Source: Natrinema sp. CBA1119 (GTDB lineage Archaea; Halobacteriota; Halobacteria; Halobacteriales; Natrialbaceae). From it: a stretch of 64,000 bases of DNA. The notes beneath the pieces were generated by a model. That model searched no databases. It was given only the letters and a program-made list of their open reading frames with translations, and was not told where the DNA came from. The number at the start of each line of letters is the position of its first letter. The first letter of the stretch is position 1. The position numbers and the translations under genes were made by a program. The stretch spans positions 1,116,001-1,180,000 of the forward strand of contig NZ_PDBS01000001.1 of the NCBI RefSeq assembly GCF_002572525.1. The letters run 5' to 3'. Positions 1,536 to 33,275 of the stretch are shown here, piece after piece.

Positions 1536-3863
1536 GTGTCTCTCTCCTCAATTACGGATGCAGCCGTCCGATGTGAAGAGAAACCGGAGTTGACGCTATG
1601 GTTCGGTCAGCCATTCTCGATCGGTAGTGACCTTATGTCGTTCGGTGACGTTGAACTTGCGGCCGTGGATACGTCGTTGGATGCCCTTAATCGAAATCAG
1701 AGTCTTACGATACAGAACCCACTACCGGCCGATGAACTCCTCCTCAGTATCTGTCTAGGGTACATTCGCTTACAAAACCCTAGATTTCCCACCAAGGGGA
1801 TCATCGGCCAAGGAAAATCACTCTGTTTGTTTCCGGCCCTCTCGAAAGGTTACGTGACCAATTTTGACAATATTCGTCGTACTGGTGTAGGTGAAATGCC
1901 GAAACTGATCGACCGAGAGTCGATCGGTGCGATGAGTGAAATCGATGGGGAAGCAGATCTCTATACTGCCAAACATGGGATCGGTCTGGACACTGTTCCT
2001 CAGGAAATCGGGGCCCTAATCGTGGATCTCCGGAAGCGCGAATGGCGCCAACCAACCGCTCGTCTGGAGGAGCTTAAGGAGTACGTTGACCAGACTCCTG
2101 TCCCAGTGATCTACTATCTCGATGAGGAGCGATCCCAATTTGATCCCCTGCTCGAAGGGACTGAGCGGATCACGATCGATAACAAACTACTCACGACGGC
2201 CAGACCCGAGCTCAGTGAGCACGCCACCACACTCTCGACGTATGCGAGTATTCTCACCTCTGGCGAGCGAACGGTACAGATCACGGCCATTCACCACCCT
2301 GAGATGCAATCGGTCATCCGAGACCTTGGCAACATGAAACGCGACCTGCAAAACGTGCCTGGGCTCCAAACAGAGGTTGGGTGGTTGTTCAACCTCTTGA
2401 CCGAACTCCCCGTCAGACCACAGTATTGGGAACAGGCTGTTCAGGATAACTTCCATCACCAATCCGTCGCCGATCTCATTCAGAACCTTCGGGCAAAGAC
2501 GAATCATCTTGAGGGTATGACCGCCGATCTTCTGGTCAACTACGCTCAGGCAGGCAGCTACCTCCAACAGCTCCTGAACCGCTCGCATCCGCTTCAGGAG
2601 GCGCTATTCGATCGGCTGGCAGAGGCCGACGCAAAAAAAGTCACGACCCGCTTCGTGGTTCGCAACGAATACGAGCGAGATGCTATCAATGCGGCGCTGG
2701 CAGCAGAGAACCGGCAGATGCCGACCCACGCCGAATTAATCCCGATTGCCGACCTGAAACCTGATCCGGATGTCCCGACGGTGTTCACACGGCCCATGCG
2801 GAACGCACGCTATGTTTACGGATTTCCACCCTCGCGGACTGTTGAGTTCGTCCAATTCGACATGTGGGCCGACTATGTCGAATCTCACCTTCAGGAAACC
2901 CTTGAGGGGACTGATACCACCGTTACCCGCCGCGAGTACAACGAGCCTGTCTCGGAGTCAACTCATGCTCACCGGTCACATGCCAGTTCGGGCAGTCAAG
3001 CAGCCGCCGGTCCTGCCAACACCCAAGGACTCGATGACAAAATGACTGTAGAAGACAATGAAGCCCCCGCCAACCAGTCAGTGAGGGGAGATAGCATGAG
3101 CGAATTCTCCTATGAGGCACCCAACTACGACAACCCCGACGAGCTGCTGGAAGAGGTCCTAGCTGCGGAATTCAGTAAGGAGATCAGACAATCCGCAGGC
3201 GGCGCCAGTAGCGGCGATGATCGTAGTGGGGATGTTGACTTCTCCGGGCCCAAAAAGCGGATCATCTTCCAGGATGGGGACTCGATCATGCGAGCACCAT
3301 CCAGCCGCGTCACAATTACGTCTGGCGACAATATTGTTCGCATCTCCGTCGCGGAGCTCGAGCCTGGTGATGAAGTACTGCTCGTTGACAATGCCCAAAA
3401 CGACGTGTACGACCTGTTCATCAAATCGACCCACGAGCGGGATAAGGTTCGCGGCAGCGAGTCGACGATCGAGCGTTGGCGGTCGATCCTGCAGGACGGC
3501 CTGGACACAGAATACAGCGCTATTGAACTCATAGATGAGATGGAAGAACACGGATCCACGATTGGCAATGTATCGACAATTTTGGGGTGGCGGTCCGGCC
3601 GAACACTCGGGCCTAGAAACCCAGATGACGTCAAATACGTCCTTGAGATATTGGCGCCTGACCAAACATCGTTAGCGACGCCCACCGTGAATGCACTCAA
3701 GGAGATCCGCGGCTTGCATCGGAAGATCGGCCGTGAAACTCGGCGGTTGGTCGAAGCCAAACAAGCAGGTGCTTCACTCCCCAGCGGCGTGAACTCGGTG
3801 GATGGTAATATCGACACAGCTACTAAGCAGAAAGTCATTGCAGAGGTAACTAATGTCGAGTGA
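1536..3863 (+). CDS. drmE: DrmE-like protein of a DISARM-type defence operon
   Basis: Large protein (775 aa) without an intact ATPase or nuclease motif that I can see. Residues 1-470 form a long alpha/beta region. One segment (TRFVVRNEYERDAI, near 375, then VFTRPMRNARYVYGFPPS, near 425) looks like a helicase-fold lobe without catalytic signatures. Residues 475-540 are a Ser/Ala/Gly-rich, probably disordered linker. The C-terminal 200 residues begin with a strand-rich part (ELEPGDEVLLVDNAQ), then a helical part containing GRTLGPRNPDDVKYVLEIL. This layout and the position directly before drmA fit DrmE, the class 2 DISARM protein of unknown activity. The start is GTG, chosen from the upstream TATA box. 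The stop overlaps the drmA start by 11 nt, implying coupled translation. The family call rests mainly on context; sequence support is moderate. Confidence 0.6.
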   Translation: MSLSSITDAAVRCEEKPELTLWFGQPFSIGSDLMSFGDVELAAVDTSLDALNRNQSLTIQNPLPADELLLSICLGYIRLQNPRFPTKGIIGQGKSLCLFPALSKGYVTNFDNIRRTGVGEMPKLIDRESIGAMSEIDGEADLYTAKHGIGLDTVPQEIGALIVDLRKREWRQPTARLEELKEYVDQTPVPVIYYLDEERSQFDPLLEGTERITIDNKLLTTARPELSEHATTLSTYASILTSGERTVQITAIHHPEMQSVIRDLGNMKRDLQNVPGLQTEVGWLFNLLTELPVRPQYWEQAVQDNFHHQSVADLIQNLRAKTNHLEGMTADLLVNYAQAGSYLQQLLNRSHPLQEALFDRLAEADAKKVTTRFVVRNEYERDAINAALAAENRQMPTHAELIPIADLKPDPDVPTVFTRPMRNARYVYGFPPSRTVEFVQFDMWADYVESHLQETLEGTDTTVTRREYNEPVSESTHAHRSHASSGSQAAAGPANTQGLDDKMTVEDNEAPANQSVRGDSMSEFSYEAPNYDNPDELLEEVLAAEFSKEIRQSAGGASSGDDRSGDVDFSGPKKRIIFQDGDSIMRAPSSRVTITSGDNIVRISVAELEPGDEVLLVDNAQNDVYDLFIKSTHERDKVRGSESTIERWRSILQDGLDTEYSAIELIDEMEEHGSTIGNVSTILGWRSGRTLGPRNPDDVKYVLEILAPDQTSLATPTVNALKEIRGLHRKIGRETRRLVEAKQAGASLPSGVNSVDGNIDTATKQKVIAEVTNVE

Positions 3864-18443: not shown

Positions 18444-18509
18444 GCGCCGGTGGTGAGCAGTTCCTCCGGAACTGCGAGCCTCGGCGCGCGAGGAGTGTAG
18501 TGGCACAGT
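18444..18509 (+). repeat. tRNA-Gly 5'-end hairpin unit A
   Basis: Begins with a copy of the first 11 nt of the downstream tRNA-Gly (GCGCCGGTGGT), then GAGCA. An inner perfect stem GCAGTTCC/GGAACTGC with 3-nt loop TCC is enclosed by an outer stem GCGCCG/CGGCGC. A more decayed relative (GCGTCGGTAGTGAGA) lies just upstream near 18,387. Confidence 0.7.
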
Positions 18510-18572
18510 GCGCCGGTGGTGAGCAAATCCGCAGGATTTGCGATCCTCGGCGCGAGCGAACGAAGTGAGCGA
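18510..18572 (+). repeat. tRNA-Gly 5'-end hairpin unit B
   Basis: Same plan as unit A: tRNA-Gly 5' end copy, then inner stem GCAAATCC/GGATTTGC with loop GCA, then CCTCGGCGC closing the outer stem. The inner stem differs from unit A at two positions on each side, and both changes keep base pairing. Ends with GCGAACGAAGTGAGC immediately before the tRNA. Confidence 0.7.
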
Positions 18573-18643
18573 GCGCCGGTGGTCCAGTGGTAGGACTCGA
18601 GCTTCCCAAGCTCGCGGCCCGGGTTCAATTCCCGGCCGGCGCA
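18573..18643 (+). tRNA. tRNA-Gly(CCC)
   Basis: 71-nt cloverleaf: acceptor GCGCCGG/CCGGCGC, anticodon stem CGAGC/GCTCG with loop TTCCCAA (anticodon CCC), T stem CCGGG/CCCGG with loop TTCAATT, discriminator A. No intron. It is flanked on the 5' side by two hairpin units that copy its 5' end and on the 3' side by a unit that copies its 3' end. Confidence 0.95.
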
Positions 18644-18683
18644 TCCCGTCGTAAGCAAACTGCGAGCGACTGGTGCGCCACGA

Positions 18684-18768
18684 GGGAATCGAATCACGCG
18701 AGACGGAGCCCGCACAGCGGAGCGAGCAGGAACGTCTCGCCATCGGGTTCAATTCCCGGCCGGCGCAT
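18684..18768 (+). repeat. tRNA-Gly 3'-end hairpin unit
   Basis: A 25-bp exact copy of the tRNA 3' end (18744-18768, matching 18620-18644) is preceded by an inverted partner of its T arm (GGGAATCGAA, 18684-18693; 9 of 10 pair). An inner perfect 8-bp stem lies between them (GCGAGACG 18698-18705 / CGTCTCGC 18733-18740). Same architecture as the units after tRNA-Ile. Confidence 0.75.
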
Positions 18769-32810: not shown

Positions 32811-32884
32811 GGGCCAATAGCTCAATTAGGTTGAGCGCCACTCTGATAAGGTGGAGGCTCTCGGTTCAAATCCGAGTTGGCCCA
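32811..32884 (+). tRNA. tRNA-Ile(GAT)
   Basis: 74-nt cloverleaf: acceptor GGGCCAA/TTGGCCC, anticodon stem CCACT/GGTGG with loop CTGATAA (anticodon GAT), T stem CTCGG/CCGAG with loop TTCAAAT, discriminator A. Followed by two hairpin units that repeat its 3' end. Confidence 0.95.
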
Positions 32885-32929
32885 TACTTTTGCCGCGAGC
32901 AATCTCGCGAGCCGCAAATATGGAACCCG

Positions 32930-33022
32930 ACTCGGATTTGAATTACGGAAGTCGCAGCCCGGGAGCGAACGAAGTGAGCGACCCGGAACGTCTTCCGGTG
33001 GTTCAAATCCGAGTTGGCCCAT
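32930..33022 (+). repeat. tRNA-Ile 3'-end hairpin unit 1
   Basis: Outer stem ACTCGGATTTGAA (32930-32942) pairs over 13 bp with TTCAAATCCGAGT (33002-33014), which is part of a 23-nt exact copy of the tRNA 3' end (33000-33022). Inside are stems GGAAG/CTTCC (32947/32992) and CCGGG/CCCGG (32959/32982) around a GCGAACGAAGTGAGC loop. Confidence 0.8.
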
Positions 33023-33075
33023 TTTTGCTGCGAACAATGCGAACGTAGTGAGCCGTGAGCAGTGGAAATACAATC

Positions 33076-33160
33076 AACTCGGATTTGAGCCCTGGCAGTC
33101 GCAGCTGGTGAACGAAGTGAACCAGACCGTCTGCCTCTGGTTCAAATCCGAGTTGGCCCA
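33076..33160 (+). repeat. tRNA-Ile 3'-end hairpin unit 2
   Basis: Outer stem AACTCGGATTTGA (33076-33088) pairs with TCAAATCCGAGTT (33142-33154) in a second copy of the tRNA 3' end (33139-33160). The inner stems are GGCAG/CTGCC and CTGGT/ACCAG around GAACGAAGTGA. Each inner stem differs from unit 1 by paired changes that keep complementarity. Copies of the tRNA tail are 137 and 139 bp apart. The rest of 32885-33275 has no gene. Confidence 0.8.
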
Positions 33161-33275
33161 CTTCTCGCAGCGATCTATTTCGCAAACCAGCGGCCTACCG
33201 GACGACTCGAGTCACTGAGGAACGACAGATTCGTTCGACCCTCCGATCGACGGATCGTCGCGACGGTCGACTCGG

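Follow-up and report, generated by a model that had tools for sequence, protein, structure and literature searches.

Behind many tRNA genes of Natrinema sp. CBA1119 and of other haloarchaea lie gene-free palindromic units of about 100–180 bp, each closing with a copy of the 3′ tail of the tRNA gene that it follows. Their appearance is that of very small mobile elements which restore the gene they occupy, a kind for which searches of open-access papers yielded no description. Precise presence and absence with tail duplication, tandem growth and the exchange of modules are observed directly. We propose, tentatively and at somewhat less than an even chance, that the units are gene-less mobile mini-elements ('tail cassettes') which recombine at the tRNA T-loop through a recombinase supplied in trans; their mobility is well supported, while we infer the enzyme.

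The tRNA-Ile array and the anatomy of the units

The window is a stretch of 64,000 nt (contig NZ_PDBS01000001.1, positions 1,116,001–1,180,000), and all of the features described here lie on its forward strand. The array is anchored by a tRNA-Ile(gat) gene at 32811–32884 (ARAGORN; Rfam RF00005, 69.6 bits), whose own tail, from the T-loop to the 3′ end (tRNA positions ~52–73), occupies 32863–32884 (23-nt block 32863–32885). Unit 1 consists of a hairpin (H1) and linker of type a (32885–32928; segmentation and fold), an inverted T-loop with the 3′ half of the T-stem (32929–32943; pairing over 32927–32942), a core stem with the conserved GTCGCAG/AACGTC and the tip GAACGAAGTGA (32944–33000) and a tail copy corresponding to tRNA positions 53–73 (33001–33021; 23-nt block 33000–33022). 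R1, a covariance model covering the stretch from the inverted arm through the core to the tail, matches this unit at 32929–33015 with 91.4 bits. Unit 2 follows the same order, with an H1 hairpin and linker of type b (33022–33075; segmentation and RNA fold), an inverted T-arm copy (33076–33090; pairing over 33075–33091; R1 match 33076–33154, 92.0 bits), a core stem (33091–33139) and a tail copy (33140–33160; 23-nt block 33139–33161). After the last tail copy, a decayed third H1 of type c, which opens with CTTCTCGC, extends from 33161 to approximately 33195; this type is found intact at loci L046, L048, L055 and L056.

The initial annotation of this region had placed tail copies at 32863, 33000 and 33139, spaced by 137 and 139 bp, and both the coordinates and the spacing were reproduced: the units measure 137 and 139 nt, each closes with a copy of the last ~22 nt of the tRNA and the three 23-nt blocks show identities of 100, 100 and 96%. 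The inverted T arms, for which 13 bp of pairing had been claimed, pair with the next tail copy over 16–17 bp at 94%, with perfect inverted blocks of 13 and 14 nt against the tRNA-Ile tail. The inner stems change from GGAAG/CTTCC to GGCAG/CTGCC and from CCGGG/CCCGG to CTGGT/ACCAG, as originally read. The 277-nt Ile region folds with −131.7 kcal/mol compared with −86.6 ± 5.6 kcal/mol for shuffles (z = −8.0); the H1 of unit 2, when folded with DNA parameters, does no better than its shuffles.

The loop GAACGAAGTGA, to which the same annotation had drawn attention, is present in both Ile units but is not diagnostic of them. It occurs 49 times in the genome (G000; reversed control 0), in the window at 18558, 32967 and 33110, and of the 46 copies cross-checked on contig C1 five fall within matches to the hairpin model; it was therefore rejected as a family marker. 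GAACGAAGTGA is a general haloarchaeal hairpin tip that is widespread beyond the tRNA units.

The plan had also been claimed for an unrelated tRNA-Gly; at 18573–18767 it holds, with a different tip. Besides tRNA-Ile, this gene, tRNA-Gly(ccc) (18573–18643; ARAGORN; RF00005), is the other unit-bearing tRNA of the window, and it carries a single unit of 124 nt (18644–18767; R1 match 18680–18761, 60.7 bits), composed of H1 (18644–18679), inverted T-arm (18680–18694), core (18695–18746) and tail copy (18747–18767). Thr(ggt), the third tRNA of the window, has no unit. Upstream of the tRNA-Gly(ccc) start at 18573, the opening 11 nt of the gene (GCGCCGGTGGT) recur twice, at 18444–18459 and 18510–18525. 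Each of these copies begins a hairpin, and the arrangement may mirror the tail units on the 5′ side.

Starting from the tRNA, the order of parts is the tail, a T-rich start with the H1 hairpin, the inverted T-arm, the core stem and the tail copy. The tail copy begins in the T-loop and stops precisely where the tRNA gene stops (~53 to 73), without CCA, and the inverted part, comprising the T-loop and the 3′ half of the T-stem, fits its own tRNA. In the core, the left side conserves GTCGCAG and the right side GACCGTC, and a T–T mispair (column 24) and a CAG/AC internal loop are kept as well. Many units begin with a run of T, and all of them stand in the sense orientation behind their tRNAs. They have no terminal inverted repeats of the kind that defines a MITE, since H1 opens each unit and the tail copy closes it; the sole long inverted pair of a unit is the internal one between arm and tail.

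From 162 units of 80–200 nt, the 148 with an inverted copy scoring at least 14 were used for comparisons. Their tail copies are identical to the tRNA over all 21 nt (53–73) in 72 cases and have at most one mismatch in 123, and the bodies are far less well kept. In 37 of the 148 units no other tail suits the inverted arm better than that of its own tRNA, ties included, where about 2.5 would be expected by chance; this ranking was replaced by a test of the part of the arm beyond the T-loop, in which the own tRNA scores above the mean of other tRNAs in 124/148. Tips of the form C(GNA)G, which are unusually stable in DNA, close 146 of the 162 cores compared with 37% of shuffled cores. Folding of the sense strand is favoured modestly, in 94/148 units with DNA parameters and 103/148 with RNA parameters, a weak bias.

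The stems covary. Removal of five odd segments (Phe 2 and 3, Tyr 2, Arg(gcg) 2 and Ile L052 2) from 46 left 41 in the H2 set, 28 of which were aligned (A1) with near-duplicates and several aberrant or short cores omitted. Among these chosen, more regular units, 87.7% of cells pair and 17 of the 27 pairs have changed on both sides; none of 500 shuffles reaches the observed values, and slid partners pair in 24–47%.

Distribution among haloarchaeal tRNA genes

Tail duplication in this genome is far beyond chance. Among its 47 tRNA genes found with RF00005, 19 have a direct downstream copy of their own tail (last 20 nt of the gene, at most four mismatches, within 800 bp), mostly 80–160 bp away, whereas 0.25 of 47 would be expected from 1700 mismatched tRNA/flank pairs. 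Upstream, one gene of the 47 has such a copy, and this is the tRNA-Asp pair; as the pair (L030 and L031) consists of two whole genes and L030 is among the 19, the true tail copies number 18. The same test gave 0/30 in a non-haloarchaeal genome of the phylum and 0/30 in the haloarchaeon G153, covering the 30 best-scoring tRNAs of 50 and 43, respectively. G153 belongs to the same order, gave no match to the hairpin model, shows no tail copy at the 30 tRNA loci (L282–L311) and contains many broken Y1 transposases.

A genome-wide search with R1 (E up to 0.1) returned 21 rows representing 19 places. Seventeen of these lie directly behind a tRNA gene, including tRNA-Pro(cgg) and the intron-bearing tRNA-Trp, both of which were missed by the first tRNA search. 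For the other two the tRNA is further off, tRNA-Val(cac) by ~10 kb and tRNA-Arg(tct) by ~18 kb; both places lie downstream of the gene, past its displaced tail, and all 19 are thus traceable to tRNA genes. Across the phylum 51 of 294 genomes match R1, all of them in the same order, in which two listed genomes gave no match. Ten further genomes contain 9–39 matches each; of 30 loci drawn from them, 29 stand behind a tRNA with a tail copy and the 30th (L114) follows a displaced tail, that of tRNA-Tyr as judged by eye. A Natronococcus locus (L136) contains the whole tRNA-Gly(gcc) gene twice; a unit follows the first copy, and two more tail copies follow the second.

An exact pattern run against 84,980 species retrieved 75 stretches, 72 haloarchaeal and three bacterial, with 2–3 expected by chance. 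Of the haloarchaeal matches, 68/73 have a tRNA no more than 900 bp in front of them, and for 60 of those 68 there is a tail copy with at most two mismatches in 16. Three haloarchaeal megaplasmids match the units: one carries a whole tRNA-Gly with its unit, another only a tRNA-Ala, and that of Natrinema thermotolerans (L215; CP031304.1 232380–238462, around 2900–3090) the 3′ part of a tRNA-Glu with a unit, displaced and without the 5′ part of the gene. In viral contigs the exact pattern had no match, which is weak evidence for so strict a pattern, and 11 phage records match the tRNA itself only; a viral origin was not retained.

The initial annotation had spoken of a class of small tRNA-derived palindromic units. 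A tRNA-linked palindromic class does exist, with many tRNAs, an order-wide distribution and compensatory stem changes; its derivation from tRNA applies to the ~21 nt of the tail and the inverted T-arm but not to H1 and the core, which are common to different tRNAs. The possibility raised at the outset, that such units would occur nowhere else and that their stems would not be conserved, is contradicted by this distribution and by the covariation.

Presence, absence and exchange of units

The presence and number of units vary freely among the species of one genus. Behind tRNA-Ile, compared in 28 genomes of the genus plus one more from the family and one more from the order (30 in all), zero, one or two tail copies were counted in 11, 12 and seven cases, respectively; at two zero-copy loci (L047 and L058) a recognisable unit with a decayed tail is left. 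By eye, three H1 types at tRNA-Ile occur in the orders a-b-c, a-c-b, b-a-b, b-c and c-a.

Three comparisons at two tRNAs pair an occupied with an empty site, and in each the two differ by exactly one unit and one tail, the flank past the last tail copy being that which follows the tRNA directly in the empty genomes. At tRNA-Ile, the occupied G006 reads CCCA-unit-CCCA|CTCAGTTTCTGAGCGG and its empty counterparts read CCCA|CTCAGTTTCTGA in G021 and G003 and CTCAGCTTCTGA in G005. At tRNA-Gly(tcc), the occupied G000 reads GCGCA-unit-GCGCA|CTCCTCAGCC compared with GCGCA|CTCCTC or CTCCAC in the empty G005, G013 and G016, and the occupied G010 ends in GCGCA|TCACCGTTTTCCGCATCGTCAGCG compared with GCGCA|TCRCYGTTCTCCG in the empty G006, G008 and G011. 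Because the empty sites are unpolarised, exchange is proven by these comparisons and insertion is not. One array, behind a tRNA-Gly(tcc) of G295, holds five units, two of which are near-identical and alternate with another type.

Cores up to 0.92 identical are found behind different tRNAs of different genera. Mean core identity falls from 0.65, for one tRNA across genomes, to 0.60 where genome and tRNA both differ (30% of pairs sampled) and 0.55 between the different tRNAs of a single genome; since cores are no more alike across tRNAs within a genome (0.55 versus 0.60), the exchange appears to be old, with no sign of a recent burst. In 18 of the 148 tail copies the sequence is identical to the tRNA from position 60 on and differs in the T-loop, several having one extra base after TTCA. 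The resulting 8-nt T-loop (TTCA-N-AAT) recurs in Phe, Thr, Ile, Lys, Gly, Ser and Ala units, and a form shared in this way by several tRNAs places the joint at which bodies met different tails within the T-loop.

Mechanism, alternatives and known systems

Under the tail-cassette proposal, insertion would leave the tRNA whole, as the unit brings or duplicates the tail, and would push the old tail downstream, which is the arrangement seen at occupied sites. Gain and loss would then be site-specific recombination inside the T-loop; the T stem-loop is one of three tRNA-gene regions used by integrases (PMC8371274). As the unit codes for nothing, the enzyme would have to act in trans, and it is most likely to be a tyrosine recombinase of the T-loop class, several of which are present in each genome tested. 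Recombination may act on a folded single strand, as the inverted T-arm and the mispairs conserved in the hairpin suggest; inverted and direct T-arm would then pair into a double-stranded site. Arrays of up to at least five units do form at one tRNA, and their growth would also proceed by ordinary recombination between tail copies.

Several observations support the tail-cassette reading: the 19/47 tail copies against 0.25, the precise empty sites, the variable number and order of units, cores more than 90% alike across tRNAs and genera, the shared T-loop junctions, the covariation and the presence of PF00589 in 18/18 genomes searched. This last finding does not discriminate, because PF00589 is present with or without units; the two genomes lacking model matches, with eight and four PF00589 matches, have it as other genomes do. 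Across the 18 genomes, neither PF00589 nor Y1 transposase counts correlated with the units, and no recombinase linked to the units emerged from the PF00589 counts. An autonomous element sharing the unit ends did not turn up. At the 73 tRNAs of named loci, no interval between tail copies bears a gene, neither an integrase gene belonging to the units (100–180 bp) nor a larger gene cassette, and the two intervals of more than 260 bp each close with another complete tRNA gene. Further points count against the tail-cassette reading: unit loss and tandem growth can be explained by ordinary recombination at ~22-bp repeats, and a unit moved to another tRNA would bring the wrong tail, so that re-tailing would be an extra step. 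The lack of any sign of recent bursts and the modest preference for sense-strand folding weigh on the same side.

The proposal can be extended to an integron-like, gene-less system, in which T-loops serve as anchors, the hairpin is the folded single-strand site, the recombinase inserts, excises and reorders cassettes and spare 3′ ends are kept. We regard this extension as rather doubtful, and equally so the corollary that such a system acts at most tRNA genes of an archaeal order.

Among the alternatives, general recombination and template switching alone are the most probable, although unlikely in our view. An ancient insert behind a tRNA would have multiplied through slippage and through unequal crossing-over between tail copies, with copying across the palindrome keeping the stems paired and conversion from the tRNA keeping the tail copies perfect. 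The alternating near-identical units of the five-unit G295 array and the much better preservation of tail copies than of bodies agree with this, as do the deletions between 19–22 bp repeats described in Haloquadratum (PMC3119063). On its own, however, such recombination leaves unexplained why one body family stands behind dozens of tRNAs with matching tail and arm, and why T-loop junctions are common to different tRNAs; moreover, the core mispairs (the column 24 T/T and the CAG/AC loop) are kept, whereas correction of the palindrome would erase them.

We consider it improbable that the units act as a functional RNA, with the read-through transcript of the tRNA folding into H1 and the inverted T-arm hairpin so as to regulate 3′ processing, terminate transcription or offer RNase Z a decoy tail. 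The uniform sense orientation, the frequent T-run starts, the covarying stems and a z near −8 as RNA would fit such a role, but it is difficult to reconcile with a presence and number that vary freely within one genus, with more than half of the tRNAs of the genome lacking a tail copy and with a haloarchaeon in which 0/30 were found. In addition, the tail copy has no 5′ partner for its acceptor and T stems and would not be a tRNA-like RNase Z substrate unless the inverted arm joins it.

Decayed scars of ordinary tRNA integrations (proviruses or plasmids), of which the two attachment ends are left, are a very unlikely source. Large elements do occupy the same tRNAs (10 kb at tRNA-Val(cac) and about 18 kb at tRNA-Arg(tct)), but scars of separate origin would not be expected to have a single H1 and a single core design in common across tRNAs and families, and the attR of the Val element covers more of the tRNA on its upstream side than the copy in any unit. 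The ~10 kb element in tRNA-Val(cac) (L210; G000:C1:3744500–3755700) contains two tyrosine-recombinase-like ORFs by eye, one of which has a PF00589 match. Both large elements of G000 sit in the tRNA's own tail with the unit beyond the displaced tail, so that in these two cases the unit did not shield the gene, and a role as integrase decoy was rejected.

Scarcely more than a slight chance attaches to a relationship with PATE-like IS200/IS605 elements moved as single strands by a Y1 transposase. Each unit has two hairpins and its C(GNA)G tips are of a single-strand type, and haloarchaeal PATEs have near-terminal palindromes and go down to 52 bp (PMC3119063); nevertheless, Y1_Tnp has no match in five of 16 unit-bearing genomes (G006, G020, G058, G233 and G275; 18 searched) and is present in both genomes without model matches, and PATEs make no target duplication whereas the units duplicate a 21-nt tail at every site scored. 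The SINE-like or retron-like origin first suggested finds no support: the copies have a fixed T-loop start and end at the tRNA 3′ end, relatives show precise, site-specific empty sites, and the lack of CCA on the copies examined speaks against copying of mature tRNA.

If the tail-cassette reading is right, mini-elements of a class that has escaped notice occupy a large share of the tRNA genes of a whole archaeal order, and no genes of the cell are more conserved than these. The many stray tRNA tails behind haloarchaeal tRNAs would be explained, and tail copies that mark no island would be a confounder to remove from attachment-site prediction. The units would also provide a minimal natural system for T-loop recombination, perhaps on folded single strands, making the use of tRNA genes as integration sites directly testable with a 130-bp substrate.

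A different short palindrome is reported behind tRNA genes in Methanopyrus kandleri (PMC5217627), and a study of tRNA gene fragments in Thermococcaceae contains no word beginning with 'halo' (PMC9897764). The PATEs and short mobile repeats (SMRs) of Haloquadratum are, like the units, haloarchaeal, non-coding, transposase-free and palindromic or built on inverted repeats, with lengths of 50–150 bp; unlike them, as far as the relevant part of the report goes, they neither duplicate a target (tail) nor target tRNA genes, SMR-A instead targeting PATEs (PMC3119063).

MITEs are likewise short, non-autonomous and present in many copies, but the units lack terminal inverted repeats at their ends and the stretch that they duplicate is a defined part of a gene rather than a random target site. 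The attC sites of integrons are imperfect hairpins with conserved unpaired positions and a variable tip. Taking attC in these general terms, integron cassette arrays resemble the units in being tandem, anchored at one end, provided with such an imperfect hairpin in each member and shuffled in order between relatives; they differ in that the units are gene-free (73 tRNAs), have no integron integrase linked to them and are anchored by a tRNA gene. Integron gene-cassette arrays have been reported in Archaea (PMC9668308).

Elements of tyrosine integrases that nest in tRNA genes extend over kilobases, in contrast to the 100–180 bp of the units, which are gene-free and palindromic with an inverted T-arm, form tandem arrays and occupy dozens of tRNAs per genome. 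Both nonetheless lie at the 3′ part of the gene, restore it and displace the old tail, and the units share with these elements the gene-restoring identity block and, in the three comparisons made, precise empty sites.
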